Assembly (NCBI RefSeq): GCF_029867415.1
Contig: NW_026705576.1
Coordinates: 124,001-188,000 of the forward strand
Reading direction: 5' to 3'
Source: Vicia villosa
Lineage: Eukaryota > Streptophyta > Magnoliopsida > Fabales > Fabaceae
Length of the DNA: 64,000 nt
Each line of letters begins with the position of its first letter. The first letter of the stretch is position 1. Position numbers and translations under genes: made by a program. This document shows positions 4,085 through 44,992 of this stretch, in pieces. Under the pieces are notes generated by a model, which saw only the letters and a program-made list of their open reading frames with translations, was not told the origin of the DNA and did no database searches.

Positions 4085-4620
4085 GCCCCATTTCACGTCA
4101 GACGCAAAAGGGATATAATCTCGGTTACACATGCGAGGTAACATAGAACGACATAAAAAGATGCCACTTTACCCCTCGACTTTTAAATAACCGGGGGAAA
4201 AGTGGCACTTGTTATGAGTTTGATCTCTAGCAAGTGCATTTTTTGGATTTTTGAAACTGCGCTACTTTTTACCTCGATTTTTAACAATAACTGAGGAGTA
4301 AAGTCCTGTTTATAAAATTTTAATTTTAAGCTGTTTTTTTTCTTCGTTTTAATCTGTAAAACATAAAATTTAATGAAAAATTATAAATCTTCCTCCTCCT
4401 CATCATCAACAACAATACCAATCACTACAATAAAAACAAAATCAATAGAATCCTTAAACATTAAATCTCAACAACAAAAACAACAATAACAATAACAACA
4501 AAATCCATGGAATCTTTAAACATTAAATCTCTACAACAACAACGACAACGACAACAAATAAACAAAATCAATAGAATAGTTAAATACTAAATTAAAAAAA
4601 AAAACAACAATATTAAACAT
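4085..4620. repeat. Left arm of the CACTA element: subterminal inverted units and CAA-rich tandem copies
   Basis: Around 4168-4215 there is a palindrome: CCACTTTACCCCTCGACTTT, a short spacer, then the complementary arm ending in AAAAGTGGC. A second CCTCGATTTTT / ACTGAGGAG pair follows near 4267-4305. From about 4430 to 4620 there are three imperfect copies of a roughly 75-bp unit built from AACAACAA runs and the word AGAATCNTTAAACATTAAAT. No ORF of interest. Confidence 0.6.
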
Positions 4621-4760
4621 TTTACTATAACTAAAATTAATAAGTTATTTTCATGCTTTCCTAACTAGATAAAAGATTAAGCATTAAGAAACCAACCTTG
4701 AAGTATTTTGCTACTCTTACTTTCATTATCATTGTTTTTCATATGTTTAACTAGTGTCTT

Positions 4761-4780
4761 ACCCGTGCGTTCGCACGGGT
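4761..4780 (-). terminator. Helitron 3' terminal hairpin
   Basis: ACCCGTGCG-TT-CGCACGGGT is a perfect 9-bp stem with a 2-nt loop, 6 nt from the CTAG end. In Helitrons this hairpin acts as the transposition (rolling-circle) stop signal, not a transcription terminator. Confidence 0.9.
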
Positions 4781-4829
4781 ACCCGTCTGTCTCGCGCATT
4801 GGGTTTTAGGGCACTTTAATAAAATAGGG

Positions 4830-4832
<3 letters not shown>

Positions 4833-4907
<75 letters not shown>
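4833..4907. repeat. (AT)n microsatellite inside the Helitron 3' region
   Basis: About 37 uninterrupted AT dinucleotides, 50 bp inside the terminal hairpin. It is likely hypervariable between copies and may also be length-compressed or expanded in the assembly. Confidence 0.95.
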
Positions 4908-4909
<2 letters not shown>

Positions 4910-5200
4910 TTCATATTATAAGGTAAAATATTTTAAATAGGTTAAAAATACCTGTTGGACCTTATAGTTGGTTAATTTATCTAATGGGCCTTAGAATTCT
5001 AGCCTTGGTGCAGAAAACCTATTTTTATTGTTAGACCTAATTTGTTAATAGGCCCAAAAAAGAATCCTATTATTGGTATTGTTACATAACGCTGGAATTT
5101 AAAATGAAAGTAACGTTGGATTCATAAGCAATCAAAGAGTCTGTCTTTGGCATTGTTGGTGTAAGAAACGCAGGGTTGGGTGATAAGTGTGAAGAACAAA
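4908..5200. other. Leader/promoter region of the first Helitron B3-like gene
   Basis: AT-rich, without an open frame. It separates the AT microsatellite from the start codon at 5201. No clear TATA box assigned. Confidence 0.3.
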
Positions 5201-6200
5201 ATGTCGCAGCCAAGAAGGTATGTGCATGTGTTACTGTTTATGTTGTTTGCAGAGTTTATCATAAGATATTCATCCATTTAGAGGTCGCAATGTTGTTTTG
5301 ATTCCAGTTCACCCGATAGGTTGGAGTTGCAAACTCCATGGAAGCGGCTCACAGTTGAGAGGATACTGAGTGGGTCACAGGAGAATGATGATGTTATGGA
5401 GGAATGGAAGAAACAACATCAAAGATTGAATCGTGTCGACGATGCCGGTAAAGTTTCTGTAGAGGCTGCCAGGATTGTTGAAAATAAAGGGTAATCTTAT
5501 AGTTTAATTTTGTTTCTTGTATTGAATTCCATTTAACCTCTACAAAATTGAATGTGTTTCCGGAATAATGAGTTACAACTTAGTTTAATAAATAGTTTGT
5601 ATGTTATTGTGTTGAAGGGATGATGGAGATGGAATTGAATACATAATGATATCTTCTGATAGTGAGAGGTAAAGTTTATTTATAAGAGATAGGGAATATA
5701 TTATCGTTATAGGTATATTGATGCTGTTGTGTTTGCATTGTGTTGTAAATGTGGTCTTAATTGCAGGGAAATGAGTCCTGTACAGGAAGAGTTCGAAGAA
5801 GCGTACTGGACACGTGAAGTTCATGATGTAAAGAAGTTTTGCTCAAATGTTATGGTAAGCAGTGTTCAAAGTCTATAGTTGTTGGCACACTGGTGTTATA
5901 CAGAGATGTAATGTAACTGATATTGTATGTCAATGAGTGCAGTATATTCCTGCAGAAATAGTAGAGAAATGTGGGCTTGCTGGAATGTCAGAGATTACCC
6001 TCAATGATGTGGACAACGGGTACCCATATGAGTGCAATGTGAAGAAGAGGCCAAAAAAAAATGAAACATATTTGTATGGAGAATGGTTTGACTATGTAAG
6101 GGCAGCGGAACTGAAAGTAGGTGATAAAGTGCACTTTGTGATTTATTACCCGCCGGTGTTAGATATTATGGTAACAGTGGAGCGCAGTGGTGATCGTTGA
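5201..6200 (+). CDS. Helitron-borne B3-like DNA-binding protein (copy 1, 198 aa)
   Basis: Five exons: 5201-5217, 5308-5490, 5618-5668, 5767-5854, 5943-6200. All introns are GT-AG and the coding total of 597 nt is a multiple of three. The N-terminal half is acidic and unstructured-looking (EENDD-type, SSDSE). The last exon (about residues 114-198) is a B3-like fold: IPAEIVEKCGL, then GEWFDYV, then ELKVGDKVHF, matching the conserved P..F/V, GW..F and L..GD..F positions of B3 domains. B3 domains are plant-specific DNA-binding pseudobarrels; the target here is unknown. It lies on the strand opposite the Rep/helicase, within the same Helitron. The Trp-bearing GEW replaces the usual GW. Annotation as B3-like is by pattern, not by search. 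Confidence 0.7.
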
Positions 6201-6961
6201 TAGAGCTGTTGGTTAGGCAATGTTTGTGGTGGATGTATAGGGCCGTTTTTTAGCAGTTTGGTTTGTATGGGATTTATGGTTTTGTTTTTTTTTGTAATGG
6301 TGGATGTGAACCAAGATTAACAATTATGGCACTATGTATGGTTTTAAATTAAATATTATCAATTTTGGCTGTAAGTTTCATGGACTGAGCCGAATCTGCC
6401 ATGGTTTTTATGCAAAATTGATTACCACTCTGTTTTAAAATTAAGTATTGTTTATTATAAGTATTGAACAGGATATCTATCAAACTTGATCAGAATAGGG
6501 AACCTAATTTCATTATTGTTGGTATAAGTTTGGGTATGGCTCCTGTAAATGGTAGGCTATTAAATCTAATAGGTAAACACACAACAATGGACATATGAAT
6601 AGTTGAAAATTCAATTTAATAGTATATGTTAAAGAGTAGTACGATAATATTAAATGGTTATAAAATAGTTGTAATGTGTTATATTATATTGGGATGTGAA
6701 AGATCAATTGGGTTATGGGCAGTTATTGTTTTTCGTGAGGCATATAAATAAAACGAAAACTGTTTTGAAGTGATGTAAATGCAAAGAAGACTAATTGAAC
6801 AATTGCATTGATTTCTATTGGGCGGTGGAAAAGTAGCAGGTATGTGAAGAGTCCATTTAGAGTGTTATATAAGTAATGTGCAGATAGTTTGATAGCACTA
6901 AACACTAAAGCATTCATCATTACTCTGCAATCAACAGTGTAAGCTGCGAATTTCTGAAAAG
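6201..6961. other. Spacer between two Helitron B3-like genes
   Basis: About 760 bp, AT-rich, holding the 3' UTR of copy 1 and the presumed promoter and leader of copy 2. No ORF with recognisable content on either strand. Confidence 0.5.
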
Positions 6962-7683
6962 ATGGAAGGAAGAGTTGATCAAGCAGTGAGAGGTAAAGGT
7001 TAACACATCATTTGAAAGTTTGCTCTGTTACATATTGTATTTAAAAGTTATATATGGTTGCATGCAGGTGAAGAAAACTCGGTCAACCAAATGGCTGTGG
7101 GGAAAGCTGTCACCTCTGATAACTCTGTGTATGTTTGAATTAGCTTATGTTGAGTATACATTTTATGTTTTAATTTAGAATGTTTGATAACACATTTATT
7201 TATTGACCATGTTGTCTGTTTGTATAATGTTCCAGATGCCATGAACCTGTTGTTGACGATTTTAGTTGCCATGTAGAACAGCCTGCTAAGTTACAATATT
7301 GTATCTGGAAGCAAGATGTGTCCAACGGGAAGATGGCTCAGTCATGTCTTCTTGTAAGTTATTATTCGTTTTAAGCTTATTGTCTTTCCCTAACAGTTAA
7401 TGGGATTATCTAATGTTGTTTTATATCAATATTGCAGGAAATTCCTGAGCATGTTGTGGCAAGTCGCTGGCTCCATGGAGCAAGGTTTGTAGATTTGGTT
7501 GACTGGGAAAGGGAAGTCAGGTATGAATGTGAAGTTCATCATACCGAAAAGGGTCAGATGTTCTTAGGGCGTGGTTGGTACAAATTTGCCAAGGAAAGGT
7601 GCCTGCTTGATGGAGACTCTATGGGCTTCAGCGTTAAGGATCCCATCAGCAAGGAGATACTTGTAACAATGTTGAAATATTGA
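6962..7683 (+). CDS. Helitron-borne B3-like DNA-binding protein (copy 2, 151 aa)
   Basis: Four exons: 6962-6992, 7068-7128, 7236-7353, 7438-7683. GT-AG introns; total 456 nt. The N-terminal about 70 residues are Cys/Val-rich with no known domain. The last exon (residues 71-151) is the B3-like part: EIPEHVVASRWL, GRGWYKFAKERCL, GDSMGFSV. It has the same final-exon architecture as copies 1 and 3, suggesting duplication of one ancestral gene, but the N-termini differ strongly. It is convergent with the Rep/helicase gene: stop codons are only 255 bp apart (7683 versus 7939). Function beyond DNA binding cannot be stated. Confidence 0.7.
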
Positions 7684-7938
7684 CAATGATGTCAAAGTTT
7701 GTTATAAATATCTAAGTGTTAAACTTTTTGTAATTTTCTGGTGGACTTAGGTCCACCTTTATATTAATATATAAGATTTTGGTTTTTAGATGTTATGCTA
7801 TATATATATTATTTCTGTTACTTACATTGCTAATATGCTATTAGTAATATATATTACAGCAGTTACTTGCAATACTAATATGCTGTTATTAATATAGATT
7901 ACTGCTGTTACAGATTTACTCTGATCAATTCTAAAAAC

Positions 7939-10900
7939 TTAGACATTGTTAAAAACTTCTTTATAGACAACATTTGTAGTTTTCTCCCTGAATTTCTTTT
8001 CTTCATCATGTATCAGTATTTTGATTCCCTTTTTTGTTGTTACTCTTGACAATGCGACATAAATCTGGCCATGTGTGAATACATCTTTCGGTAAGTACAA
8101 ACCAACGTTATCCAAGGACTGTCCCTGTGATTTGTTAATTGTCATAGAATAGGAAACTATAATAGGGAACTGTCTCCTATTCAGTTTGAATGGCCATGGT
8201 GATTGGGATGGTGACATGTCCATTCGAGGTATGTAAACCAAATTTCCCATACCTTTACCACCCATTATTGAAGCCTCCAGTACATGGGCTGCCATCTTTG
8301 TTATACACAGCCTTGTGCCGTTACATAAACCTTCAGCCTGATCTATATTTCTCATGAGCATTATAGGTGTCCCAACCTTTAGTTTTAAGTGATGGTTTGG
8401 CAATCCTGATGTTCGGAGGGAACTTAGAAATTCTGGTGTGAGGATATCAACTACTGCTGGGTCATGAATCTCAGACTTGTCAACTGAATTTGCGCTGTAG
8501 TAGTCACGAATCTCTCCTACATTGTTGACCAAACAGAATTAGTAAAAGCAAAAATTAGATTAATATAATCCATTAAATTATATATTTTTGTTGCTTAACC
8601 TGGCATCAAGCTAAGTATATGGTCATTGATCTGATCAACAATCTGCAGTGTAGAGGCAAGTATCGCTCGACTTTTAAGGTAATCTACACATTGGAAATTA
8701 TTTATGAAATCAGGGTATGTGCTATTGACAATGGCCACGATTGGATCATCAAATTCTGTTATCAGAATATCAGGTGGTATGTTGATTTCGGCGGTGCCGT
8801 CATTAGGCTCAGATATTCGGCCCTCTCCTATTCTTAAAAGCCAATCTGAAAACTGTGCTATCTCATTTTTGTCAGTCTGTGTCGATCCTGTTCGTAGCCG
8901 CATGTTTCTTGTCAATGTTAATACCTCAACTGAATGCCATATGTAAGATGCATTTATGGCACAGTGTACAATATCGGAACGACTGCCTCTGGGGACGACA
9001 GGTAAAATCTGTCTGAAATCACCCCCGAAAACAACAACCTTTCCACCGAATACATCAGTTGAATTTTTGTCTGCACTCATAACATCTTTCAAAGTTCTGT
9101 CAAGCGATTCTATTGCATACTTATGCGCCATTGGTGCCTCATCCCATATTATAAGCTTTGTCTGTCGTAACATGTCTGCGACATCATCGTTGAATTCAAC
9201 CTTGCAAGTAGAATTGTCCATAGTTGGTACCGGTATCCTGAACTTTGAATGTGCAGTTCTACCTCCTGGAAGTAACAATGATGCTATACCGCTAGTTGCA
9301 ACAGTTAAACATATATCGTGTTTTGATCTTAATGCAGCTGCGAGTGTTCTCCACATATATGTTTTTCCGGTACCACCATAACCATGAAGGAAGAAAACCG
9401 CAGGTTTTTGAGACTCCACAGCGTGGATGATTTTTTCATAAATACTTCTTTGCTCATCTTAGGAACATAATATTGATTGTAGAACGGTGTTAGAATAATT
9501 GATTCATAGAATTTCAAAGCGTAAAATAAAATGAATTTAATTGACGCAATAGTTACCTGTAAGAGCAGCAAACAGATTTTCAAATTCTGAGTTCATTGAT
9601 GCTGTATCATAATTACGCTCATCATATATGAGCCTGTTTCCCAACTGTTCAAGAACATAAGCATCCGGATATGGAATAGGACTAAAATCCTTTAGTGTCC
9701 TTCTATTTGCCTGAAGCAGTTTCTCAATTTCTATTAAAGTCAAATTTTGCAACTCTTCTTGTGTGAGGTCCAATTCTGCATTGATATGAGAAATTGAGTT
9801 ATAATGCTGTTGGTAAGTCATCTGTAGCTTGTTATTAACAAATTGTTTTGTTTGCTATTTTATTATGTCTAACAAACCTGGATTAGCAGCCAATGCTCTT
9901 TGTGTATGTAAGACACCATCAGATAATAGGAGCCAAGTTTGTTCCCAAACATGTGCAGGGCGATTAACAGCACCAGACAAAAGCATGATAACAAACAGTT
10001 TTCGAAGAAAATGACCAGTCCCCCAATGACTTGCCTCCTTTATAGCAGCTATGTATTCTTTGTCGTCTTCAAGAAATCCCATTGCAAAGCATGCATCTCT
10101 GAATGTATCATACTGAATGTTATCCACGGTCCTGATTTCCTCATATGTTGTTGGTCCTTTTGCCACCGTCAACATCATGCGCAGGTAAAACAGTTCACCA
10201 GTTGTTGGCGGAACCCATATGAGACGTCCAATGGTGAAGCCTTTTTTCCGCGGTTTCCATTCTCTCTTTTTTTTGTGGTAAACAAACTTTGAGACAAACT
10301 GACCATAAGTTAATGTTTGTGCCTCTTCATATTTAGCATTTGCTACCAGCCATGCAGTAAACATTGATTCAGTCACACTTGCAGTTTCCAGCACATTTTC
10401 CATGCGTGCATAATCTGTATAGTATATAGGTTTCTCCCCAACCAAATGATAGAACATACGTTCCACAGCTGGTTTTCTGCCATGAATATTGTAAGAGTAA
10501 ATGCGCCAGCATGCTTCACTGGGTGAGACATACCTGCAGTCGAGATATTGTTGGATCTCATCAACAGGTTGATTGCTATTTGTTGAAACTGCTGCTGTTA
10601 TTCTGTCATAGCCTTTATTGATATATTTGAAAAGATATTTTATTGAAGTACTCTGATTACACCATTCCATGTTTATATGTGCCTGGTATTTCATAAGAAA
10701 TCTGGTATTATATGGAACCACATGTCTGTTGTCCAAGGTGATACCATTTTTTTCAATAGTGAAGGTTTTTGATCTTCTCCTATACAGCGGATATCCCTCT
10801 GCATCAACAATAGTGTCTTCAATAAACTTTTTGGGGTAGTATTTAGAACATCGTCCATTCTTCATACATTGTGAGGTCACGCGAGCAAGCCCACAGGGTC

Positions 10901-13198
10901 CATGCATCATATGTGCCCTAACCAATTTGTATAAATTGGGATGAACAGTCGGGTCGGGAATTTCAGCAGAAATGATCTTGTCTATGTCGGATGGTGTTGG
11001 GTATTTGCTCTTAGGGTGTAGGAATATCAAGATGTGAGCATGTGGCAATCCGCGCTTTTGGAATTCGATGGTGTACATATCTATTAAATTGAAAGTTAGT
11101 TCGATGTAATATTTTGGTACTACACAGACACATGATTGAAAAGTAGTATAATTAAATGAAACAACTTACATGCAATCACTTTTCCCACGACATGGTGTTT
11201 TGTAATATCATCCATGAGGGTATCAAACTTTATTTTGAAAACTTTTGAAATGATATCTGGCCTATCATGGGGTTGTAGACCTGTGCCTGACAATGCTCTT
11301 TTAATTTCAGGCCAATTTGGGTTGCAGGTAAAAGTAACAAATAAATCAGGGAATCCCAATTGACTTGAAATGGCCATACCGTCAAAATATAATTGATCCA
11401 TATATCTCTTGCTACCAACAAATGTTGATGGCAGAACAACTCGTTTTCCTCGCTTTTGGTGTTCATTTCTTGTATCGCAATCAGTTTGAGCGGCCAAATT
11501 ATTATATTTGCCCACTCTTAATTTCGACTGATTATCTCTCAACCAATTCAGTCGTTCGGATTCCATCATAGCATAGCCGTCGACTAAGAATTGTTGAAAT
11601 AGGCGTCTTGAGTAAAGTAGTGTTTTTGCCTCTTTGCGACGTTGTTGTAACCGGTAAGAAAACCAATCCTTAATGCTTTGACGGTTTCTCTTAGTGACCT
11701 CAGTTTCATGGCGATATCTGTGCATTATATTTTTCCTGTAACCATCTTCCCCATAAGGAAATATAAGAGGATACTGATAAGCCAAATATGCTGGGTGAAA
11801 CTCATCTATTCGTTGCAAACCACCATTGCGGCGCTGAATTAAGATGTCCCTTTTATCAGCAGAATCAATGTCTCCCACAATGAGTGCAGCCACTTCTGAG
11901 ACAGTAGGTTTGTTGTAAACACGGCCATCTTCGGATCTATCAGAAATAAGCCTGAGTTTTAAATCTGTGAAAGAATTTGTCCTTAAAACATCCCTTGCCA
12001 TTCTAAAAGCTTTGGCATGAACATTGTGCTGATCTAACATCATCTTGAGCTTTTTGACAACCGGTCGCTCGATGCCTTTGTTGTCCCTGTTTATTTTTCG
12101 CAGCCATGAATAAATAGTTTAACATAATTTTTGTATAAAACAATTGTGTAATTATGTCTGAGCATGCTTACTTGAAACATTTTATTCTGTGTTCAACTTC
12201 ATTGTCCGTGTCATAGATGTATAATTGAGCATATTGCGGAGGTTGCCCTGTTTCTGGCAGCAGTGTACCAATTCGATGACAGGTCTGACCCTGCAGTCTC
12301 AAAGTAGGGGGTCCACCTCTTTTAGAATATGTTGTGTCGAACTTCATTCCAGGGGAAGTGAATGAGAACATTGCGTTGTATGTTCGTATGTTAGCCTGGT
12401 AGTTTTTACTATCTGAATATGTGTTATTAAATAGAAGATCTTGCAACACCTGTGGAGGTTGCTCAAGGAACGGAAGAACAATTTTTCCTCCACGGCAACA
12501 ACGATAAAAGCGAGGAGTTGCTGTAATTTTGTGTCTATTCACTTTTTCTTGGTACCACATACATGCTTGGCAGTGTGCGCATTCATAACTTTGGTCGCCA
12601 ATATCGTAATATTCTGAAAAAAGAAACCACAATACTGAATATGTCTATCAACAGAAGAAGTGTACATCATTTGGTTATCAGTGTATGATATGGAAATACC
12701 TTGAAGATGGGCCTCCTGTAATTGTGCCGGGTCTGAATCTTCGTCAGAACTGGAACTATTAGAAGAATTTAAATTATTGTCAGAGTTGGAGTCATCATTG
12801 TCTTCATAATGAGATTCAACAGACACATTATGATTTGAGGTAGATGGATGATCCATGGACTGACTTGACATATTATAATTTGAAGTAGATGCATGATCCA
12901 TGTTCTGACTTTGACTAACAATGTTGTTCGTATTTTGAACCCTACTAACTTCAGTATTGAACAAATTTCTCAATCTTTTTCTGTTATCCAAGATTATTTT
13001 CCTTCTCTTTCTAGCCATAGCCGTTTCAATAGTGGTTTCATATGTTACAGAAGATGTAAAATTATGATTTAAATGGGAAGTGAGGTTGCTTGATCTGACA
13101 CGGTTTCGATAATCCCTCTTTGCTTTAAGAATAAGCTTTCTCCTCTTTCTTGCAATGGATGTTTGAGGAGCAGTGTTTTTAACAACATCTGTTTCCAT
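7939..13198 (-). CDS. Helitron Rep/helicase (RepHel), 1571 aa, intact
   Basis: Seven exons on the minus strand: 13198-12700, 12613-12172, 12086-11170, 11080-9878, 9775-9557, 9457-8600, 8516-7939. All six introns are GT-AG; the total of 4716 nt is in frame with no internal stop. N-terminus: two copies of a basic ARKRRK(L/I)IL word (likely nuclear localisation) and an acidic Ser/Asn-rich stretch, then a Cys/His cluster (CAHCQAC). The HUH nuclease motif PHAH has its histidines near 633 and 635; the paired tyrosines (YLDCRY) are near 798 and 803. The PIF1-type SF1 helicase has Walker A GYGGTGKT (1119-1126), WDEAP (about 1198), GGDFRQ (about 1237) and YVALSRV (1532-1538). It nicks and unwinds DNA for rolling-circle-like transposition. 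The start was chosen at METD because it is the ATG opening the conserved basic repeat. Everything needed for catalysis appears present. Confidence 0.9.
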
Positions 13199-13697
13199 CA
13201 CAAACACAAAAGTAGGATGAATAATAATACTACAAATAAGATTGATTTGTATAGATTTATGCACACAATATGAGATGTATAGCATGCTACTTCATGATTT
13301 TGAATACTAAAAGTTTACAGTTTCTAATTGAAGGGGAATTGGTGGGTTCAAATGTCATGAATGCAGTATTGATTTTAATTTTTCTTTGATACTTGAATAT
13401 ATATGAAATTGGAACTGAATATGAATAGAATGATGGTTATAGATTTAAATTACTACTTATCCCTCCCTTATAACTGTTGTGTGTGTTAAATGTATTTAAT
13501 TTAATCTATACAGGTTATTTATAATATTTTATTTGATGGATGTGTTACTCTTTTAAAAAGACTTTAAGTCAAAACTAATATTATAAGTAAATAGAAACTG
13601 AACAGTTAACCCACTTTCTGCATGTACCTAGTACTTGTTTCCTATTGCACTGAATAGAAGTTTAGCATTGCAACTGCCTGCGGTTAGGGTTCCGACA
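13199..13697. promoter_or_regulatory. Divergent promoter region between RepHel and B3-like copy 3
   Basis: The start codons of RepHel (13198, minus) and the third B3-like gene (13698, plus) lie back to back across 499 bp of AT-rich DNA, so both promoters and leaders must be here. A TTTATAATATTTTATTT stretch near 13516 is a candidate TATA for the plus gene. Specific sites are not assigned. Confidence 0.5.
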
Positions 13698-14805
13698 ATG
13701 GCATCTTCACACGGTGGTCCTTCTGTGCGTATTCCCTCTGATGATGAAAATGATTTCAGGTATGAGTAGATAATTTTATTTCACCATTGCTTTGCGGTAG
13801 AAAATAGGGTATACCGGTATACAAAATATGGTAGTGTGGTAATAACACTTAACAACATTTAGTGATGGGTGTAGTATCAATATAGCACAATGTTGTATTA
13901 TGTGTGGTATTGTCAAGAAATCAAATGTGACTGAATGACTATTGTTGGTTTTTATTGTTGGATTTCATATCCCGTCGTTGCTCGGCATATGACTATTGCT
14001 TAGTAAAGAATGCTTCATATGCGGTTTGTTTTTAATCCATATTTGATGTTGGAACAGCAATGATCAGGCAATGGAAATCATAGAAGATTTGGTAAAGGAA
14101 ACAGGGTACGATCCTAAGGTGGAAAGAAAACGCAGGAATAAACAGCGCAAAGTCACTGCTGATCGTGTTGTGACGAATGTTAATGTTGTCGCACAAAATA
14201 GCGCAATGGTTAACAGCAATCCCAATGCAGGACCTGTAAAGATAAAAGAGGAATCAACAGACATTGACACAAATGAAATCAAAGTTTCTGAAGTTGGTGA
14301 ACCAAGTGGATCAAAACAGGGTAAGAAACAAAAGGGTAAAGTGGTGAAAAAAGCAAAGGTCGGTACAGACATTACTGTAGACAGTTCTACAGGGGCTCAA
14401 AATTTTTTCTGGAACACCCATGTTACAAATGCTAAATCTACACAGCAGAATGTAATGGTAAGGAGATATTTGAATATTTGCAGCATGTTATTGAAAATGT
14501 AAATAGTATATATCGTTAATAGTTACCTTATTTCTTGTATGCAGCATTTCCCTAAGGAAATCGCCAAAAGATGCCTCCGTCGCTTTCAAGATGAAATCAA
14601 CCTGCTGGATGTGAGGACGAAGAACATTGTTACCTGTCAGGTTCACAAAGCTAACAGAAAAGGAATACCCCAGCCATATGAAAAGTACATGGCCCTGGGA
14701 TGGTACGAATTCGCCAAATCTCTTAACCTGCGTAATGGGGATACAATAGCATGGAGTATGCTGCGATTCTCTCCGTATATCTATGTGAAGGTTGAAAGAC
14801 AATGA
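13698..14805 (+). CDS. Helitron-borne B3-like DNA-binding protein (copy 3, 240 aa)
   Basis: Three exons: 13698-13759, 14058-14457, 14545-14805. GT-AG introns; total 723 nt. The N-terminal acidic tail (SDDEND) is followed by strongly basic runs (ERKRRNKQRK near residue 45; KQGKKQKGK further on), probable nuclear localisation signals. The last exon (residues 155-240) is the B3-like domain: HFPKEIAKRC, LGWYEFAKSL, LRNGDTIAW. It is divergent from RepHel across a shared 499-bp region, so co-expression is plausible. It ends 783 bp before the convergent RPA1-like gene. It is the longest of the three copies and has the clearest GW..F and NGD positions. Confidence 0.75.
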
Positions 14806-15587
14806 AGAAACTGCTGCTATTTGCAAACCGCGTACTATACCCGAATTTTAATGGTTACATTATATGTTGGGAATGTTATTTTGGTACATTGTGTTATATA
14901 TATTCTGCTACATGTTATTTTGTAAGCACTTTATCCAAAATGTGAACACAGTAATATTGTGACCACTGGAAGATCTAATCTATAATCGTTTTCAGGACAA
15001 ATTTTTTAAGTTCTCCTATTATATTCTATTAATCCACTCTGATATGCTGTTAGTTAAAATGAAATCTGTCCCATAATATTGTATCAACATTATAGTAAGA
15101 TCAGACATAAAATTATTTATTGATAGTTAACATAGTCAAATGTTAAAAGTCCTGGTGTTTGTTTGTGAGACACAATCCATGTTTTAGTTTACAATGCAAT
15201 AACAGAAAACTTAAATTCTGCTAAACCAAACAAACTGTTCTTTGCAACATCATTATTGTAACTAACATTAAAAATAATAAAAAAGGAGCACCGCGTTATA
15301 AGAGGTATAGTTAAAATGGAATGTTTGATATATGATCAAAAAGAATCAAAATAATTAATAATAGTATATATAATATGTAGTTCAATTTGAATCATTTGAA
15401 TATAATAAGACAAAGAAACCATTGATAATTCTTAAATCAAATTGAACATAACAGAAGCACATAGCCAGTATTCATGCACTAATTATTACAGAAAATGAAA
15501 TCACACACATGATTAAAAGCAAAGGAAACTAACATTCAGTTTTTGTAACAAACACCTAAGCAAAACACACACAAAATAAAAATATTC
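14806..15587. other. Convergent 3' region between B3-like copy 3 and RPA1-like gene
   Basis: About 780 bp, AT-rich, holding both 3' UTRs. No ORF or repeat recognised. Confidence 0.5.
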
Positions 15588-18122
15588 CTAATCAATCTTC
15601 TCCATTTTAATTATCTTCTTCAGCTTGTTTGATGACAGTTCCCCATCAATAGATTCACTTGATGCAGCAGGAAGATGTCTCTTACCACCAGGTGTAACAG
15701 CATCCGGCTTGTGTTCAGATGTAATTTCCAGGTCCTACAATGCCACGATGAAGACTATTAGTTAGGAATAGTGATATAAATGTAAGTCGATAAGTGTTAG
15801 TAATATTGATCTAAATGTAAGTAGGTAAGTGTGTTGCAGTGAGACTTACTGTAACCAATTCACAGTCTTCATTGGCATCTGTTTTAGCTTCATCAACACT
15901 CTCTTTAATCTATATATTGTTAAACACAGTTTTCAATATAACATAATCACAGGAAAAGCAAAAAAATGCATACACAGTTTAAAATTTCTACCTCCAGAGT
16001 ATCAGGTACGACAGTTTGGATTGGAATAGGTTCCTTGAGAATTTACCAAAGAAAAACAAAATCAGGCCAAAAATTGTTATAATATGAAGTCCTCTTTTAT
16101 AAAACAAATGTCAGTTTATTAGAGCTGACCTCATCTGTTCCCCATTTTTCCTTAAGTTGCTGGATAATAGGATCATTTTTTATAATCATAACGACGGAAC
16201 AGTTCTTCCAGCGTGGATGCCACTTAACCTTCATAGCCATTTCCAACTTCAACAACTGATCAAGTGCTAACGGAAAGTCCAATGGATCAGTAATTCCAGC
16301 CTATTTAAACAACTGGCCATATTAGTGTACACAGAGTATTGAAAAGTACATTCTAATTCGTATGCAGAATAAAAATATAACCTGAATCATAGTGTTACGA
16401 AGTTGCGATGCAGATAAACCCAACAGCATTTCACATTCTCTGTTCCAGAAGACAAAATTGCAGCTTTGGCCCCCGTGAGTAACCTCAATTTCAATCTTAT
16501 ACCTGAACATCATAAGAAGTCGTTCCGTTAAAAAAGCCGACAACATAGAAACATCAAAAACATGACAGAAACAACATCTATTAGGTGAGAACAACTAAAA
16601 CCTCAGGACTTCGGCCATGGTTTCATGACCAGATTCACACTCAAAGGGGGGGTTGTCCCCGCGCGCTATAGATTGACACATATGGCAGGCACGATAGAAC
16701 CATCCAAACGGAGATGCTACTAATAATTTTGTTGTAGCGACAGTAGCGCAAAATGTAACCTGGACAAATAGCCGCCAAAATCAGAAACATGTGACACACT
16801 AAACAATGAGGTTATAATTACGATAATATAGGAAAATAGAAAGACATACATCCGTAAGTTGAATAATCTCAGCAATAGGCAAAACAACAGCCTTAGAGAA
16901 CAATTTTTGGACAGGAGTGAGCTGTTGATTTTCAGAACTTTGGGAGGAATATTGGGAATTCCCTCCAAGTTGGTCAGACAGGGTTACCTTGCTCTCCTCA
17001 GGCATTCTGCAGAGCATGGATCATTTTCAAATTCATACATGAAAAAATAATTGCATAAAATGGATGACACTATCAACATACCTATCAATAAAGTCTTTCA
17101 TGATCGGAAAATCAGCATCAACACATAAAAGGCTCACATTGTAGGTGTTTGTCACAGACAGAGGATACTTTCCTGCAAATACAACATAACCTTGTCAATA
17201 TATTTATCACAGATTTTTTTCATTTAGTATCAATTTATAAAATAAGTCATGGAATAACCTTCTTCCTTCACTTTGGCATACTGAAGCAACACAACTGTAG
17301 GTAGTGATGCAGCAACCCTAACTTTGTTAAACTTGATGAACTGATCCGCGTATGATTCCCACAGAGTACAGTTCAACATGTTGTTGCTAAACCATGATCA
17401 CAACACATTAAGATATATAACATGATTCATATATGAGGCAGTTTAATGTATAAAAAAACAAACCTGTGATCACGCAACATCATGCTAATTTGCTGCTTCT
17501 TTGCACCTGACTCAGTCTGCGCATAACCAATACTATCCACCATTCCAATGACATCTGAAATAAATTTATTAATTTCACACGGCTATAATGCATCAAAACA
17601 TGAGACAATAAAAAAACCAAAAACCATACTCACGAATCAGAACATGTTTGTCAAACCTCCCTGTTATGATGTCTGAAAAACTTGTAAATAAAATCGATTT
17701 CGCGGGTATCTCATGTTTGTCTTCATCAAGAACAGATGTTCCAGCAGTAAACTTTATCATATATCTGTGTCCCGATGCCCTGAAGGCCAGAACATAAGGC
17801 ACCACCTTAAAATTAGATACAGTATAAGTATGGCCTAATAAGCATTTTTCGGTGAAAACCGACACATGCGGTGCTGGAACAACAGCATGAATATCATCTC
17901 CCTGCAGCAGAAACCAACAAATGATTCAAACTATACAAACATAGGTAAATGATAAACATACTGAAACACAAACAGGGTAATCACCAATTTGTCAACAAAG
18001 ATCATTTCAAAATGTTCCTTGCTGTTGGAGACAACTTTCCATCGGTGGTGAATCCTAACAACAATCTTCCAAAGCTCTTTTCCATCATTGATCTCTGCTA
18101 TTCTCTCAACAGGCCTTGACAT
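15588..18122 (-). CDS. Helitron-borne RPA1-like ssDNA-binding protein, 477 aa
   Basis: Twelve exons on the minus strand: 18122-17985, 17901-17634, 17554-17464, 17386-17259, 17172-17082, 17006-16850, 16759-16602, 16502-16382, 16300-16130, 16033-15992, 15909-15850, 15734-15588. All introns are GT-AG; total 1434 nt in frame. Order: OB fold A (opens MSRPVERIAEINDGKELWKI), OB fold B (VIGMVDSIG), then DBD-C-like region with a zinc-binding set near C270, C273, C286 and H290. The C-terminal tail is acidic then basic (NKLKKIIKM). Host RPA70 also has an N-terminal protein-interaction domain, absent here. RPA coats single-stranded DNA; in a Helitron it could protect the displaced strand. RPA1-like genes are known in plant Helitrons. 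Many exons give only moderate certainty on small exons 10 and 11. Confidence 0.85.
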
Positions 18123-18472
18123 GATAATGCAAATTCACACTGCACTGAATGATTACCGCAGAAGTTAGCAAGCATGGAAAGAGAAGAATGAAATTACTGA
18201 TAAATAGGCAAGCCATTTAAACACATAATTACTGCAATTGTGCAGTTTGGAACGTGGAGAGGCACAGAGTAATGGTCCTTACATAACTGCAGCAACATGA
18301 GAAGCTGTGAGGGTGAAACTTCCACAGCCATAACTGCCGCAGCCCACCATGCAGTTGAAGGATCAAAAATTCTGTAGTAACCACCAAAGCTGATGTGGAT
18401 CATTGAGAGAAGAGTTGCTGATGTGGACAGCCTAAGAAAGTCCCAAATGGTAGACTTTTCTTATATGATAGA
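18123..18472 (-). other. Helitron 5' end and RPA1-like leader
   Basis: 350 bp between the RPA1-like start codon and the inferred Helitron 5' terminus (TCTATCATATAAGAAAAG on the minus strand). It contains an open stretch at 18194-18403 without recognisable motifs, which I take as untranslated leader or promoter. Confidence 0.5.
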
Positions 18473-18695: not shown

Positions 18696-19080
18696 CCCTC
18701 GATTTTCAATAAAACCGAGGTAATAAGTCATAATTTAAAAATAAAAATAAAAATAAAAGATTATAAAATGTAGTTGTTAGGATTCGAAGATGTGCCCTCT
18801 AAATACTTTGCTCCTCGGTTTTCAATAAAACCGAGATAATAGGTCATAAATTTTTTAAAAAAAAAATTAAGAAGTGATAAAATATAGTTGCTAGGATTTG
18901 AAGATGAGTCCTCTAAATACTTTATCTCTCGATTTTACTAAAAATCAAGGTAATAGTTCATCAAAAAATTTTAAAAAAAATTAAAAGGTGATAAAATGTA
19001 GTTGCTGGGATTCGAAGACAAGTCCTCTAAATACTTTATCCCTCGATTTCCAGCAAAACCGAGGGAACATATAATATTTT
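18696..19080. repeat. Subterminal tandem array of the CACTA element, about 3.4 copies of a 114-bp unit
   Basis: Units start near 18697, 18811, 18925 and 19040 (period about 114 bp). Each begins with a CCTCG(A/G)TTTTC...AACCGAG inverted pair and ends GAAGA...CCCTCTAAATACTTT. The last is partial. It forms the right arm of the element, with another CTCGATTTTTT unit next to the terminal repeat. It is a likely array of transposase-accessory binding sites, by analogy with En/Spm. Confidence 0.75.
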
Positions 19081-23435: not shown

Positions 23436-25532
23436 CTATTGGTTTTGTGAGTAAAACCTACGAGTCCTAAAATATAGAATCAAAGCCAATAAAGTTCCAA
23501 GGCAACAAAATGAACCCCAAATGATAAAAGTGTTACTAAAACATTCCATGCCCATGCATTTTTCATGTCCATTTCCTTGCTTATGGTAGATAAGTGCAGC
23601 TGAGTAACCAAATAAAAGAGATCCAATTGGAATATTAGCCACAACCACATTATGGTTTACTGAGAAATTCTTTGTTCCAAAAAGTTCAGTTGTTGTGGAA
23701 ATAGCAGTGGAAGTGATTACTCCAGTTGAGACTCCAATCACAGCTGTGCTTATGTAAAGAGCAATGTCAGTTTTGTTGAGAAGTAAGAAGAATGCACCTG
23801 CTGTTGGTGCCATTACTGCTACCATTGAGGCTGGTCTTGAAATTGTACGTTTTCCCCTGAAATTAAAATAATTTTAGTTGAATAACTAATGTATTATTTA
23901 TATATAGATCAGATATATTAATTAATTGTTTAATATATCGGAAAAACATGTTTATTTGTGATCTAAGGGAGTGTTAATAGTAACCATGTTATGGAATGTG
24001 CGGCTTTTAATTTGTTGGTTTGTTTGTCTTCATCAATGTAGATCAACCAACATCTCCATTATCTTTATTTGCATTAAATAAAAGCATAAATGCAATAGTT
24101 TCAGTCGGTATTACATTTCACAATGTTAAAAAAAATGTTCAAAATTGCAATGTAAGGCTACAACATTAAAGTTTTTGATGTTTTGTCCACCGCAACGTAA
24201 CTATTATTTTGATCAGTATTATATTTAAAAAATTATTTTTTAAATTTATTGAATAATCAATGTATTTGATCTGTAAAAATTAAATAACGTGCAATTTATG
24301 TTACATCGGACACATTTAAATGCAATTCTCAACATTATCAAAATATCACGCGACAAATATTATTAGTGTGAGAGAAATTTAAAACATGTAAAAGGCATAG
24401 AAATTGTTGCCAATTACCTGTAGAAGTAGTCTAGAAGAGATGGAATGAGACGACCAAAGAATCCAAAAGAAGAAGACAAAGACACCAAATATGAAGTTGC
24501 AGAGCAACCTCTTGATTCAGCTATCTGTCCCAAATTGTTGAGAAATACTAATCCAATTGTTGCACCAAAAAAATACACAAAGAAATATAACCAGAAATTC
24601 ATTCTCTTCAACATTAACTTCACACCTATTTCTTCCATAACACAACCATCTTCAACTTCACTCTCTTTCTCATAACTCTCTATCCTCTCTTTGTTAATAT
24701 TCTCCTCCATGGTAAAATGGTAGATTCTTAATTTTTCTCTTTTCTTGTGCAATGATTCAACTATCTCCTTGATCTTTACACAAATTGGAAGTAAAAGAGG
24801 TAAGAGAAGAGATACTAGAATACCAATAAGAACACCAAGTGAAGAAATTTTGTTTGTGAAAACTTGCAAGCTGCTGATCACAGCAAATATTCCAGTGGCT
24901 ATTGTAATAACAAACATCAAAGCAAAAACAACACTTGAATGCTTTGAACTTTTCACTTCAGTTTCTCTTACTATAGGTGCTAATATTAAGCAAACAGCCA
25001 CAGGTACTATAGAGTTCAAGAAAAGAAAAGTTTTAGCTTTATTATGTGATGAAACAACATCAGCAATATTTGTATAAATCTTCGCACTTAATCCTTGGTA
25101 ACTAGTTGTTAATCCGACCGCGACCTGGCGATGGGATAGAAAGTTTCGTATGGCAACAACATAGCAGACAGTGTTGATCCAACAAATGCTATTGCCAGCA
25201 AGAAATGTTAGGAAGAAGACATGCCAGTATGATAGGTAAGAGATTTGGTTGGTTATGAAGAGATATTGTACACCATAACCGATTAGTCCGAGAAACGAAC
25301 CGATGATGAGGACGAGCCAGAGCGGGAGGTAAATGGCAGCAAGGCCGGAAAACCAACCAAAAAGCTTGCCAGCATCAGATGCGAAAGCAAGGTTGTTGAG
25401 TTCAATTTGTGAAATGGAGAGAAGCTGTTTTAGCTGGGATGAATAAGCTGGGAAATTTGTGTTTGTTCCATTTATGACTTGGAGCCAAATGATGCCAACT
25501 AGGCTAAGCCATTGAAGAGTAGAAGAAGGCAT
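23436..25532 (-). CDS. Nodulin-like / NFD4-type MFS membrane transporter, 511 aa
   Basis: Two exons: 25532-24418 and 23856-23436; GT-AG intron of 561 bp; total 1536 nt in frame. The protein has about 12 hydrophobic segments, a nodulin-like N-terminal half (FPAYSSQLKQLLSISQ, then ASDAGKLFGWFSG) and an MFS C-terminal half (about residues 310-511: FLNNLGQIAESRG, then STAISTTTELFGTKNF and NIPIGSLLFGY). A charged cytosolic loop (residues about 255-300, KKREKLR...EKESEVEDG) separates them. This is the usual layout and length of the NUCLEAR FUSION DEFECTIVE 4-like family; substrates of most members are unknown. The start ATG is followed directly by the first membrane segment. No sign of damage: it looks like a working host gene in a sea of repeats. 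Confidence 0.9.
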
Positions 25533-35378: not shown

Positions 35379-36806
35379 TGATCGGAAAATTAGCAAGTGT
35401 ACTATTTTTCACCGATGTAGTTTCAAATAGAGGTTTATACCCAGTATCGAACTCGCGGACTGCGTAGGAAGTACAAGTTATGCAATTATTCAATTTAACA
35501 AAATATCATGGGGTTTGTTGGTTTGTAGAGAAATTATAAAAATTATAACTAATTAAAACAAAAGTAAAATAACGGTTCTTGAAAATATAAGAAAGCATGC
35601 TAGGTTAGGTGTATAAATTGCCGCGCAATGAACTTTATTCCCCAATTTATGAAATATAGTTATAATGAGCTACTACCGAATCTCAAGAGTTGTTTTCCTT
35701 AATTCCTTAACGGAAAACCTTTGGTGTTTATCTTTAATCCTAATTCCTTAGCTATTAACGATAACAACAAGTGCGATAATGATGAATATCAAGAATTAAA
35801 CGGTTACCACAGTTAAATCCTCATTCCTAAGCAATTTTTACCGAAGTATTATTGTGCAAAATGCGTTGAGTGGTTTGTCCGACCTAAACCTCAACCGTAA
35901 ATCCGAAAACTATTTGTCCGATAGAAAAGGCATTAAAAACTTTGCACAATGAAGATAAACTCATTAAAACTTGAATAACATAAATTGATAGAAAATTAGT
36001 TCATAACAATGGCAATTCAGGGACACCCCCTAGCATTGGGGGGTTTAGCTACTCATAGTAATATTTGAAGAATTAAAAATAGAGATGATAAACATTACAA
36101 AAATTAGGGAAAGCTTTGATCTTCAATTGCGATTGCCGTTGAAAATCTCTATTCTCCAAAACCCTTGTTAGCTTCTCTTCTTCACCGTAGAATTCTTCAA
36201 TATGATCCAAGATCCCCCAAAAAACTCTCAAACTAGGACTAAGTAGTGTTAGGTTACATTCCATTCATGTAAAAAGTCGAAAACGCCCTTAATGAGGCTT
36301 GAAATAGTGAAACAGCTAAAAAAAACAATTTTTGGCCGCAACAGCTGACACGGCCGTGTCCCACGACACTGGCGCCCGTGTCAGCCTCTGGTTTCTCTTC
36401 AAACAACATTTTTCCATGTATGAGCTGACACGGCCGTGTCCCACGACACTGGCGCCCGTGTCAGCCTCTGTTTGCTCCCAACAGCTTTTTTTTTCTTTTT
36501 CAGCTGACATGGCCATGTCCCACGACACTGGTGCCCGCGTCAGCTACTTTCTTTGTCTTTTTGGCTTCGTTTTCTTCTGTTCTCGTCCCATTTTTTCGGC
36601 GATTCTTCCTTACACCTGAAATAACCAATAACTACCAACAAAGTGATCAAAAGTAACTATTCAACTAAAAATTACCACTAACAATTAGATTAACAAAACA
36701 TGAAAGAACTACTTAAAATAAAGAACAAACCATTCACAGTGTTACCAAAATGACCGATTTTTACCAAATAATTTGCGGAGTATAAGTGAAATTTGGTGAC
36801 CGATCA
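35379..36806 (-). repeat. Athila 3' LTR
   Basis: 1428 bp, matched to 45013-46440 with scattered substitutions and single-base indels. Carries three copies of a GACACGGCCGTGTC-containing block at 36344-36385, 36424-36465 and 36502-36544. An open stretch at 36073-36264 is present in both LTRs but has no family features. Confidence 0.9.
36344..36544. repeat. Three GACACGG...CCGTGTC blocks, 3' LTR
   Basis: Each 42-bp block is GCTGACACGGCCGTGTCCCA, then CGACACTGGCGCCCGTGTCAGC: an outer inverted repeat (GCTGACACGG / CCGTGTCAGC) around an inner palindrome. The third block has drifted (CATGGCCATG). The same set occurs in the 5' LTR at 45979-46178. Confidence 0.85.
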
Positions 36807-36822
36807 CAACCCCAAACTTAGC
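36807..36822 (-). other. Athila polypurine tract
   Basis: On the minus strand, TAAGTTTGGGGTTG directly abuts the 3' LTR start. Purine-rich tract primes plus-strand DNA synthesis in LTR retrotransposons. Confidence 0.7.
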
Positions 36823-37438
36823 TCGTTGCTTGTCCTCAAGCAATGCCTGGGACATCAAACAAAGGTCACCCCTAAATTTATGCTTCCACAATACAACCGT
36901 GTTTTTCACAACTCGACTTCCACCCTTCCGGTCAATCGTGCTAGCTTTTACTCCCCGGATTTTCCGCTCCACTTTCACGTTAAAATTCTCCTTCACCTGT
37001 AGGCTTTTTCACACTTCTCACCAAGTCTCTCATGGTTAAAAGTAATTCACTCATAAGTCACAATATGCAATATCAACTTTTAAATTTGAACAAATTCTAC
37101 TTTCATACACAAACACTTTGCACACACTTTTTGAGGTCTTTGGGTTGTAACGGGGCTTAGGACAGGTGGGATAAACAAGTAAACGGATACACAAAGGTTT
37201 TTTTTTTTGGGGCTCGGCAGTCATGTTGTCTTTCTTGTCATTGTGCTTATTTGAATCCGATGGGGTTTAACATTGACTCTTTAACTTCACTCAATTTTTT
37301 GAGTGTCTCAAATGTAACCAACTAAAAACCATAATAATAAAAAAAAACTGAAAACAATAAAAATCCCCCCCACACTTGAACCAAACATTGACCTCAATGT
37401 TTAAATTCAAGATTCGAGGGAGAACTTACAGTGCTCTA
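36823..37438 (-). other. Athila 3' untranslated region
   Basis: Between the third ORF's stop and the polypurine tract; about 600 bp with poly-T and poly-A runs. No coding signal. Confidence 0.6.
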
Positions 37439-38753
37439 CTACGGAGGAGGAGGGAACTGAAGCATCAAATGTCGCATCATGTGGTGAATGTTATCTAACA
37501 TTGCACCCTGACACGCTTGTTCATTACCTTGGCGAACTTGCTCCACTCCTTGCCTTGTTTGTTCAGCACGGAGATCCCCGAACTCCGTCTGAATCCACAA
37601 CCACTCTTCTTGATTCATGGATGAAAACCGGTCACCCTCTTGAGGACCCACCTCTGGTTGTTCATCCATATTGGCATTAGTTTGCTCTTCTTCTTGATAC
37701 TCCTCATCCATATTATCTTCTTCCTCCTCATTACCTATTTCGTCTTCATCCTCCTCCTGAATTTGCCTACCCAAGGATACATATACCCAATTGTCCCTTT
37801 CAGAAATTGAAACTCTTGCAGGATCGGGGAGTGTCAGAATAACACGTTTCTTCCATACCAAACCATATTGTGTACCCTGCACTCGAATCATTCCTTGATT
37901 GACAAGGGCATTCATGTCTAACTTATTCATACCTGTGACAATTTCATCATTCAGTGCCTGCGGGTTATAGCCAAAGTGTCTGGCTATTTGGGTGATCATG
38001 CCTCCGACCGAAATACCACCCGTAGAGGCGCGACCCACCTTACCTAAATGGTATGCCGCAAACGCGGCCACATTAACAGGGAACGCTTGTGCCATGGCAT
38101 CTAACAGATATAATTCAGCTCTTGACGCCACTCCCGTGCTGTCGCCCCTGCCAAATAAGGAAAAAGCGAGACATTTTTGAGCATACCTGAAACAGCGGTT
38201 TTGTATCTTAGATGCTTTAGCACTCTGCCACATAGCCACCCTCCTTAGTAATGTCATTCCAAAATGTCGAGGGGCTGAAGTACGAAGGGACCGCGCCGCG
38301 TCCATAAATGGGGAGGTGCAGGACGGCTCCCAATTCCTCCACCGTCAATTGGTGGTCCTCATTGTACAACCTGAATGTTAGTGTACCTGAGTGGCAATGA
38401 TATTCATCCGCCACAAGGCTCTGCAACTTAAAATTCACGGAACTTAAAAATTCAAGTGTTATGCACTCGTATGTCGGCGCTTCACAATGCATAAATTCTA
38501 AAATGCCTAACACATGAAACATTCGATTAATTTCATCCGACAGTCCTAGAGCCGATAAAGTTTCAGAGCACATATACCTCGGTGGTGTTAATTTACGCCG
38601 AATATGGCGAGAATAACGAACCTCGTGTGCCGGATTGGTGAAAATTATTCCGTGAGCATTGGTAGGCGGTGGTAGTGCATCGCTGGTCCTTGCACGAGAT
38701 CGCGAAGACTGCCCCACCGGTTGTTTTCCTCTCGTATTTCTCTTGGGAGCCAT
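37439..38753 (-). pseudogene. Athila third ORF (env-position / retrotransposon ORF-1-type protein), one frame break
   Basis: Two overlapping open frames on the minus strand: 38753-38217 (178 aa, opens MAPKRNTRGKQ) and 38305-37439 (288 aa). They are consecutive parts of one protein of about 435 aa, broken by a frameshift near 38220-38300. N-terminus basic and Ser/Arg-rich. The middle part has LTVEELGAVLHLPIYG and CLAFSLFGRGDSTGVASRAELYLLDAM, matching the protein commonly encoded 3' of pol in Athila elements. The C-terminus is acidic (EEDEDEIGNEEEED) and then Gln-rich. Its role is unknown; a true envelope function is not supported here, as I see no clear signal peptide or membrane anchor. Confidence 0.65.
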
Positions 38754-39437
38754 TGATGGTACCTAAAAAAAAACGAAATTCAACCGAAGAGTTAGTAGAA
38801 AAAGCTACCGTAGAAAGGTAGAGGACGAAATTTGGAGCAACTTTTGTGAAGACGGTTTTGAAGATGAGTTGATTTGGAGGTGAAAGTTTGAAGCTTTGTG
38901 GAGTGGAGGCTATGGAGTTTGTAAGGGTTGAGAGAGAAAAGGAGAAAGAAAGAAGAAGAAAGAAGGGAAAAAGAAGGAAAGGAAGAAAAAAAAACAAATA
39001 AAAATGCTGCTAAGTGGGTGGGGCCTACGAAAAACAAATTATATAAAAACAAAAATAAAAAAAACGAAAATTAAAAAAAAAATAAAAAAAATACGTTCAG
39101 CCGGACACGGGCGTGTCCAACGACACGGGCAGCCGTGTCCGGCGCTGCCAATCCTTGTTCCCTTCCTCTTTTTTTTTGAAACGTTTCTCCACCGGACACG
39201 GGCGTGTCCAGCGACACGGGCAGCCGTGTCCGGGTCTGCCTCCACCACTTTTTTTTTGTTTTTTTTGTTTTTTTTGTTTTTGTTTTTTTTTTCACCTACA
39301 AAATAAATAAAATTTGTTAGAAATAAATGCGTGGGTTGCCTCCCACGAAGCGCTTCGTTTAACGTCGCATGGCTCGACGGTCGTTCATCTTATCCTGCGA
39401 GACGAACAACATGAATTTGGCCACTCTCTTGGCCTTG
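38754..39437 (-). other. Athila inter-ORF region with GACACGG blocks and homopolymers
   Basis: About 680 bp between pol and the third ORF. Plus-strand 38925-39000 is GA-rich; 39055-39095 and 39250-39290 are A- or T-homopolymeric. Two blocks CCGGACACGGGCGTGTCC...GACACGGGCAGCCGTGTCCGG lie at 39101-39142 and 39192-39232, variants of the LTR blocks. Probably leader or splice region for the third ORF. Confidence 0.6.
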
Positions 39438-42400: not shown

Positions 42401-43073
42401 CTTTTTCATCAACCGCATCCTCTTCATCAAAAATTGATAAACTCAACACTTTGTCTAAAGGTAATTGTTGTGTTTCCAAGGACTTTTCATTTGCACATAT
42501 TTGATCAATCACCTCAATGTGTTGACTAGTGGCAACATCATCTTTGTATTTCATGGTGTTTCGCACATCAATTTTTAATTCTTCATCATAAACCTTCAGA
42601 GTCATTGTGCCTTCTTCTATGTCTATCAGACATCTTCCGGTCTCTAAAAATGGTCTCCCCAAAATGATTGGAATCTCTTCATCTTCCGGCATCTCTAGAA
42701 TAACAAAGTCCACCGGGAACACAAATTTGTCAATTTTAACAAGAACATCTTCTACGATCCCGTATGGTCTCTTCACAGAATGGTCAGCAAATTGGAGTGT
42801 CATTCTTGTATCTTGCACTTTACCTATCCCCAATCTCTTGTAAATGGACAGTGGCATAAGACTCACACTTGCTCCCAGATCAATAAGGGCTTTTTTGAAA
42901 GATCTATCCCCAATGGTACAAGGAATAGTCACAGAACCTCGATCCTTCTTCTTCACCGGAATCTTCATACCCTGCAAAATAGCACTACAAGTTTCGGTTA
43001 GAATAATCGGATCACGATCGATGGTCCTCTTCTTGGATAAAATATCCTTCATGAACTTTGCATAGGTAGGCAT
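39438..43073 (-). CDS. Athila pol polyprotein, open 1211 codons
   Basis: Domains in order: aspartic protease with DLGAS at about residues 65-69; reverse transcriptase about 375-545, with [21 protein letters not shown] and catalytic FMDD at 510-513 (F in place of Y, usual in Athila); RNase H from about 655 (CDASD, then [17 protein letters not shown]); integrase with HHCC zinc finger (H867, H874, C905, C908) and catalytic D937, D996, E1032, a DD35E spacing; then a C-terminal chromatin-reading-type tail without a chromodomain. All catalytic residues are present and there is no internal stop. The ATG at 43073 overlaps gag and is unlikely to be a true start: pol is normally continuous with gag, and a small frame break separates them here. 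Confidence 0.9.
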
Positions 43074-44874: not shown

Positions 44875-44992
44875 AAAAAAATTAGACAATTATTAGTAGT
44901 GAGCAAATAAAACAACATAAAATTTAAAATTTTAGTTGCAGAGCAACAAAAATCCAATTGAATTATTATTAAACTTATATTTTGGCAGTCCC

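Follow-up and report, generated by a model that had tools for sequence, protein, structure and literature searches.

A complete, putatively autonomous Helitron of Vicia villosa with genes for B3-like DNA-binding proteins

Plant Helitrons move gene fragments; few of them have been proven active, and their regulation is poorly known. The closest described systems include rice Helitrons of 8,064-15,513 bp with RepHel and a gene resembling replication protein A (RPA), which form a sister family of Mothra (PMC4683698), maize Helitrons with CTAG 3' ends (PMC3288121) and the Xuan-Feng family of wheat, where activity of a Helitron has been demonstrated (PMC13286980). The element described here lies in a 64,000-nucleotide stretch of Vicia villosa DNA (positions 124,001 to 188,000 of contig NW_026705576.1), which we call the window. 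It is a complete Helitron with five genes, encoding a RepHel transposase, an RPA1-like protein and three B3-like proteins, B3a, B3b and B3c. We consider it likely that this is a young, putatively autonomous Helitron with B3 DNA-binding proteins of its own, of which B3a and B3b are shared with related elements and kept by selection.

The element shares its RepHel and RPA-like content with the rice Mothra sister family and with maize ZmhelB, but in ZmhelB the RPA domain lies inside the RepHel open reading frame, whereas here RPA is a separate gene of 12 exons. The likeness to the wheat Xuan-Feng family extends to the TC and CTAG termini, the hairpin, the AT target preference and the existence of non-autonomous partner elements that share the family's ends (PMC13286980). 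The wheat Feng8 transposase is also encoded by seven exons (1,676 amino acids versus 1,571 here), and its His767/His769 and Tyr902/Tyr906 have the same spacing as His633/His635 of the HUH motif and Tyr768/Tyr772 in the RepHel of the window; the mobility of Feng8 was shown by experiment, whereas we infer that of the window element. None of the terms for B3 that were tried occurs in the main texts of PMC4683698, PMC3288121 and PMC13286980, and the main text of the last, on wheat Feng8, is also without the term RPA. A literature search on Helitrons and B3, with Repbase, most subscription papers and preprints outside its range, returned nothing apparently relevant, and in the same literature we found no paper that pairs Helitron with Vicia villosa or with RPA and DUF223. 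Within the literature searched, RPA in plant Helitrons and an active wheat Helitron are known, and B3 genes in a plant Helitron are new.

Read 5' to 3' along the minus strand, the element contains RPA in sense, B3c in antisense, RepHel in sense, B3b and B3a in antisense and then the 3' end (Table 1). The TC occupies 18472-18471 and the CTAG 4754-4751, and the hairpin at 4760-4781 is formed by 9-bp stem arms, TACCCGTGC and GCACGGGTA. An earlier note on this DNA had claimed a TC 5' end, a 9-bp hairpin, CTAG and A/T flanks, and all of these are present at 18472 and 4751. The 50-nt 3' end has a folding energy of -11.2 kcal/mol (z -3.2), which one of 200 shuffled sequences equals, and both terminal sequences, 29 nt for the 3' end and 24 nt for the 5' end, have a single occurrence in the window and none in 100 shuffles when up to 3 mismatches are allowed. 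An A precedes the TC in all 29 of the 5' junctions read (11 + 18; 13 of them recounted), and the CTAG is followed by T in all eight full-length copies of the family, the 9-bp stem being established in the window copy. Both flanks, A before and T after, were found in 10 of the 10 elements with joined flanks (eight of the window family, a 6,186-bp partner element and the related family fam82), in agreement with insertion between A and T that duplicates no target bases; the target was read from the element flanks, and for two copies at contig starts that share a 3' flank only one was used. Outside the element, a 114-bp tandem repeat of 3.2 copies lies ~225 bp from one end (window 18697-19064), and a 62-bp AT-rich tandem array lies ~140 bp from the other (window 4406-4609).

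The earlier note had advised looking for other genomic copies with the same ends, and the Vicia villosa assembly of 2.03 Gb contains at least seven more full-length copies with both. A 273-bp query for the 5' end found at least 40 places (40 scored of 541 candidates), among which the window and seven others tie for the highest score. Ten further copies were fetched whole; seven are full length (13,715-13,801 bp) and three are incomplete, although we do not take the truncation as a biological trait, since two end at runs of N and one at an apparent inserted long terminal repeat (LTR) element. Between any two of the eight full-length copies there are 24-106 substitutions per 13.7 kb, or 0.17-0.77%. 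With a substitution rate near 6.5e-9 per site and year, this divergence corresponds to roughly 0.1 to 0.6 million years. Intact genes were counted among the eight for RepHel in 4, RPA in 7, B3a in 5, B3b in 7 and B3c in 8, and the copies in which all five are intact are the window copy and c2a, which are 0.25% apart. The statement that nothing is broken thus applies to the window copy and not to the family. The ratio of nonsynonymous to synonymous substitution rates (dN/dS), computed from changes unique to single young copies, is 0.35 overall, 0.23 for RPA, 0.31 for B3a, 0.58 for B3b and 0.67 for B3c; for RepHel, where the earlier note had proposed this calculation, it is 0.34. The suggestion that the element is autonomous and perhaps recently active draws support from the seven closely similar copies with the same ends at different places, from the two intact copies and from dN/dS below 1.

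A more distant copy, d2, is full length and 97.1% identical, with breaks in B3a and RepHel and an altered RPA splice site; its dN/dS over the five genes is 0.22-0.58. Another, d1, has its matched pieces interrupted and was left out of the analysis. Two copies, c1605 and c662, share this 3' end with one extra base in the outer stem, and we rejected them as independent 3' ends because their contigs begin with the same sequence, of which 906 bp are flank and ~600 bp element, and have differing 5' flanks. The shared contig starts are probably an assembly artefact, and the B3a frameshifts of these two copies are doubtful because that stretch has many 1-bp insertions. Near the copy c2b (C2 near 209.67 Mb, L019/L020) we found the 6,186-bp element mentioned above, whose outermost 30 bp (5') and 29 bp (3') equal those of the window element and which is flanked by A and T. 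Its similarity to the window element covers 177 bp at the 5' end (93%) and 86 bp at the 3' end (83%), and a tblastn comparison of the five proteins with it gave a best E-value of only 0.8; it is probably a non-autonomous partner. AT-rich tandem repeats occupy ~4.5-6.0 kb of this partner, and rice Mothra is likewise described as made of tandem-repeat blocks.

The five genes were rebuilt from the sequence as 31 exons and 26 introns, all GT-AG, without internal stops. The exon and intron counts of the earlier note and four of its coding totals stand, and its RPA total of 1434 nt should read 1572; the 138 nt by which it falls short are the length of exon 1 (18122-17985). The chance of such open frames in random sequence of the same composition, computed without correction for the freedom to select splice sites, is ~3e-51 for RepHel, 1e-17 for RPA and 1e-5 to 2e-8 for the small genes. 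Exon frames and splice sites are largely preserved in the copies elsewhere, with breaks in some. The earlier note had named the content as a RepHel, an RPA subunit and three B3-like proteins, and Pfam agrees, with the B3 scores under the curated cut-off. RepHel matches Helitron_like_N, PIF1 and Pif1_2B, each above its cut-off, and has a Walker A motif at 1119-1126. Its residues 171-1567 align to the RepHel of Helraiser from bat (PDB 7lcc) with an E-value of 5e-268, and the alignment spans the HUH and Tyr2 motifs. Helraiser is an animal element with a single RepHel gene and is not known to carry RPA or B3. The RPA-like protein matches DUF223 above the cut-off (E 2.5e-14) and REPA_OB_2 and Rep_fac-A_C below it.

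Table 1. Positions in the window of the Helitron, its termini and its genes
Feature	Position	Strand	Description
Complete Helitron, 13,722 bp	4751..18472	minus	both ends common to 7 other full-length copies; matches stop at these ends
5' terminus, 30 bp	18443..18472	minus	starts with TC; host A precedes at 18473
RPA1-like gene	15588..18122	minus	12 exons, 1572 nt, 523 amino acids; DUF223, weak REPA_OB_2 and Rep_fac-A_C
B3c gene	13698..14805	plus	3 exons, 723 nt, 240 amino acids; B3-like domain mostly in last exon
RepHel transposase gene	7939..13198	minus	7 exons, 4716 nt, 1571 amino acids; Pfam and Helraiser 7lcc
B3b gene	6962..7683	plus	4 exons, 456 nt, 151 amino acids; Pfam and fold comparison
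B3a gene	5201..6200	plus	5 exons, 597 nt, 198 amino acids; Pfam
(AT)n run within element	4833..4907	none	length varies among copies
3' terminus	4751..4781	minus	9-bp-stem hairpin (4760-4781), 5 nt, CTAG; host T follows at 4750

The three small proteins match the B3 domain PF02362 with E-values of 1.4e-6 (B3a), 2.4e-6 (B3b) and 0.0015 (B3c), and in a three-sequence comparison they are 25-30% identical to one another with BLAST E-values of 1e-8 to 1e-11. Fold models were built for B3b and B3c from input alignments that mixed B3a, B3b and B3c. The ten best Foldseek matches of the B3b model, which has a mean predicted local distance difference test (pLDDT) score of 58.8 and values of 73-88 over residues 71-150, are all plant B3 or ARF DNA-binding domains, four of them at E <= 0.001 and the best at 8e-5, with TEM1, VRN1, At1g16640, NGA1 and RAV1 as nearest folds. 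A comparison of B3b with PDB sequences returned nothing at E <= 1. The B3c model gives weak matches; its nearest folds are the B3 domains of VAL1 and FUS3 (E 0.03 and 0.09; best 0.028), all above 0.01. The identity in the structural matches of B3b and B3c to plant B3 proteins is at most 24%. The modelling lends tentative support to a plant-type B3 fold for B3b and weak support to a B3 fold for B3c; the likeness to the plant B3 proteins TEM1, VRN1, At1g16640, VAL1 and FUS3 is one of predicted fold, for B3b and weakly for B3c, while here the genes sit inside a transposon.

Proteins of this kind are already present in the NCBI collection, where the Vicia villosa proteins that match B3a and B3b are listed as uncharacterized. 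The entry P0004 corresponds to B3a over 198 of 198 residues with 99% identity, P0001 to full-length B3b with 99% identity and two extra residues at the joint of exons 1 and 2, which backs these two gene models independently, and P0005, P0006 and P0008 are three more Vicia villosa relatives of B3a. The database's precomputed column gives PF02362 for P0001, P0002, P0003, P0004, P0005 and P0008 and not for P0006 and P0007. No whole-length match to B3c was found among NCBI proteins, the sole relative found being a metagenome protein with 54% coverage and 95% identity. The Vicia villosa entry P0003 has B3a and B3b exons in one chain, which would be an annotation error or read-through splicing.

Because other Helitron families of this genome also have B3 genes, those of the window are not a one-off. 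A search for relatives of B3a gave at least 188 matches whose identity falls in steps from 96% to ~52% (150 of 1618 candidates scored), and four outlying places were read. One of them, fam82 (C7:26865579-26880039), is an element of 14,461 bp whose ends are closely similar to those of the window element and whose five genes match it in order and orientation, at a synonymous divergence (dS) from the window of 0.13-0.24. The dN/dS between the two is 0.42 for B3a (p 0.002), 0.36 for B3c (p 1e-4), 0.24 for RepHel and 0.17 for RPA. The fam64 fragment has dN/dS of 0.41 for B3a (p 2e-5) and 0.26 for B3b (p 2e-8). Both fam64 (on C3) and a place on C370 hold B3a, B3b and the terminal part of RepHel, and since RepHel is cut at the same point in the two, an old Helitron fragment seems to have undergone local duplication. 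B3a matches of 58-65% identity repeat every tens of kb on one strand in C370, C1478, C3:194.1-194.24M and C7:54.5M. A second search, with Helitron_like_N as query, gave at least 151 matches of differing frame lengths (150 of 1160 candidates scored), from which three of different frame length were picked. Two of these, g326 and g341, have RepHel (segments ~60-78% identical, the N-terminal piece 27%), RPA and two B3 genes past RepHel, oriented as in the window. In L059, RepHel is 69-82% identical over the part read and is followed by two B3 genes and then a hairpin and CTAG end with T after it; the RPA side lies outside the stretch. The B3 pair is therefore found in all three families picked by RepHel alone, and L059 was dropped as a negative control for B3 genes since it carries two. 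The earlier note, which had called the gene content unusual, had no view of these other families. A B3c gene between RepHel and RPA was not found in g326 or g341 and was seen only in the window family and fam82. In a tree of the B3 domains the split between a and b is weakly supported (44/76), and the B3c branch is very long. On this sequence evidence B3a and B3b, on the opposite strand just past RepHel, are shared by several Helitron families and seem to be maintained by selection.

The place L049 (C1:52248944-52258943), which was left out of the tree, has a B3a-like gene of ~47-56% identity with exons at ~1837-2273 of the reverse complement. Among the B3a matches listed, at least 22 places share its 52% identity with near-equal scores, and no RepHel was found in the 10 kb read around it, which has one gap. 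L049 may represent a different mobile element that carries a B3 gene of its own.

If the element moves as is assumed from known Helitrons, the HUH/Tyr2 site of RepHel would nick at the 5' TC, one strand would be displaced by the PIF1-type helicase, transfer would stop at the 3' hairpin and CTAG, and the freed strand would insert between A and T. The RPA-like protein would probably coat or protect the single strand, and the B3 proteins most likely bind element DNA, either to regulate or shield its transcription or to guide RepHel to the ends. We rank self-regulation or anti-silencing as the most likely role of the B3 proteins, followed by end recognition and then by that of a passenger. Some plant Mutator-like elements (MULEs) code for DNA-binding anti-silencing or regulatory factors, and the B3 fold is one found in plant transcription factors. 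Within its first 400 nt the element has five ACTGCA/TGCAGT sites (window 18138-18355), all upstream of the RPA start, a number that none of 2000 shuffles reaches, and fam82 has three ACTGCA in the same interval. However, the motif was chosen post hoc, nothing ties it to these B3 proteins, and the 6,186-bp partner lacks it in its own first 400 nt. The known B3 target motifs CACCTG, CATGCA and TGTCTC show no clear enrichment. We regard an anti-silencing or transcriptional regulator of the element as a reasonable but tentative proposal.

The possibility that the B3 proteins recognise the transposon ends as part of the transposition machinery appears rather unlikely. The two B3 genes adjoin the 3' end in the window family, fam82 and L059, the three families in which that end was read, and the partner retains both ends; gene position, however, is no evidence of function, and Helraiser is mobile with RepHel alone. 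Wheat Feng8, moreover, was reported to be required and sufficient for Xuan1 mobilization (PMC13286980). It is more improbable still that the B3 genes came from the host through chance capture and are carried as roleless passengers. Helitrons of maize do capture gene fragments (PMC3288121), change has been faster in the B3 genes than in RepHel and RPA, and the 6,186-bp partner has no B3 gene. Yet they are whole genes with their own start, introns and stop, the pair lies past RepHel in all five other RepHel-bearing samples (fam82, fam64/C370, g326, g341 and L059), and dN/dS stays under 1, at low p values, for B3a and B3b in fam64 and for B3a and B3c in fam82. As for the notion that there is no Helitron as bounded here, only neighbouring genes between chance ends, we give it practically no credence, as nothing was found in its favour and it is refuted by both ends being common to the seven other full-length copies and to one 97% copy, with differing 5' flanks.

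Several observations weigh against a complete, young and putatively autonomous Helitron whose B3 genes are kept by selection. RepHel is broken in four of the eight full-length copies, and all five genes are intact in only two. Autonomy and activity are putative properties, deduced from sequence. The three B3 domains score 28.6, 27.8 and 18.9 bits in Pfam, under the curated cut-off of 30.1. The B3 change counts among the young copies are small, and B3b between fam82 and the window has a dN/dS of 0.59 that is not significant (p 0.14). Over the fam82 and fam64 comparisons the dN/dS of the B3 genes is 0.26-0.59 and significant in four of five, but these values mix selection and decay because the fam82 and fam64 copies are broken. 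The stretches read for g326, g341 and fam64 did not reveal the element's 3' end, and all the related families come from one genome, that of Vicia villosa.

The wider interpretation, about which we are evenly divided, is that a large plant Helitron lineage has a conserved B3 pair as a long-term functional module akin to RPA, by which the element controls its own expression or transposition, and that one branch later gained the third B3 gene. Should the B3 pair be functional, Helitrons would count among the transposons that encode a plant-type transcription-factor fold of their own, and some of the B3 proteins annotated as uncharacterized (Vicia villosa NCBI LOC entries) would be transposon genes and not host genes. 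A young element with two fully intact copies and a partner with the same ends offers a direct test system in a legume.

Elsewhere in the window we observed a probable Athila-type LTR element at 36342-46178, with long open frames at 39438-43073 and 43049-44689 and an ATHILA ORF-1 match inside it at 37439-38302. Blocks of an 80-bp repeat with near-equal consensus lie at 36342-36544 and 45978-46178 of this element. On the minus strand, positions 24414-25532 of the window hold a Nodulin-like/NFD4 frame of 372 codons, which probably represents all or part of a host gene.

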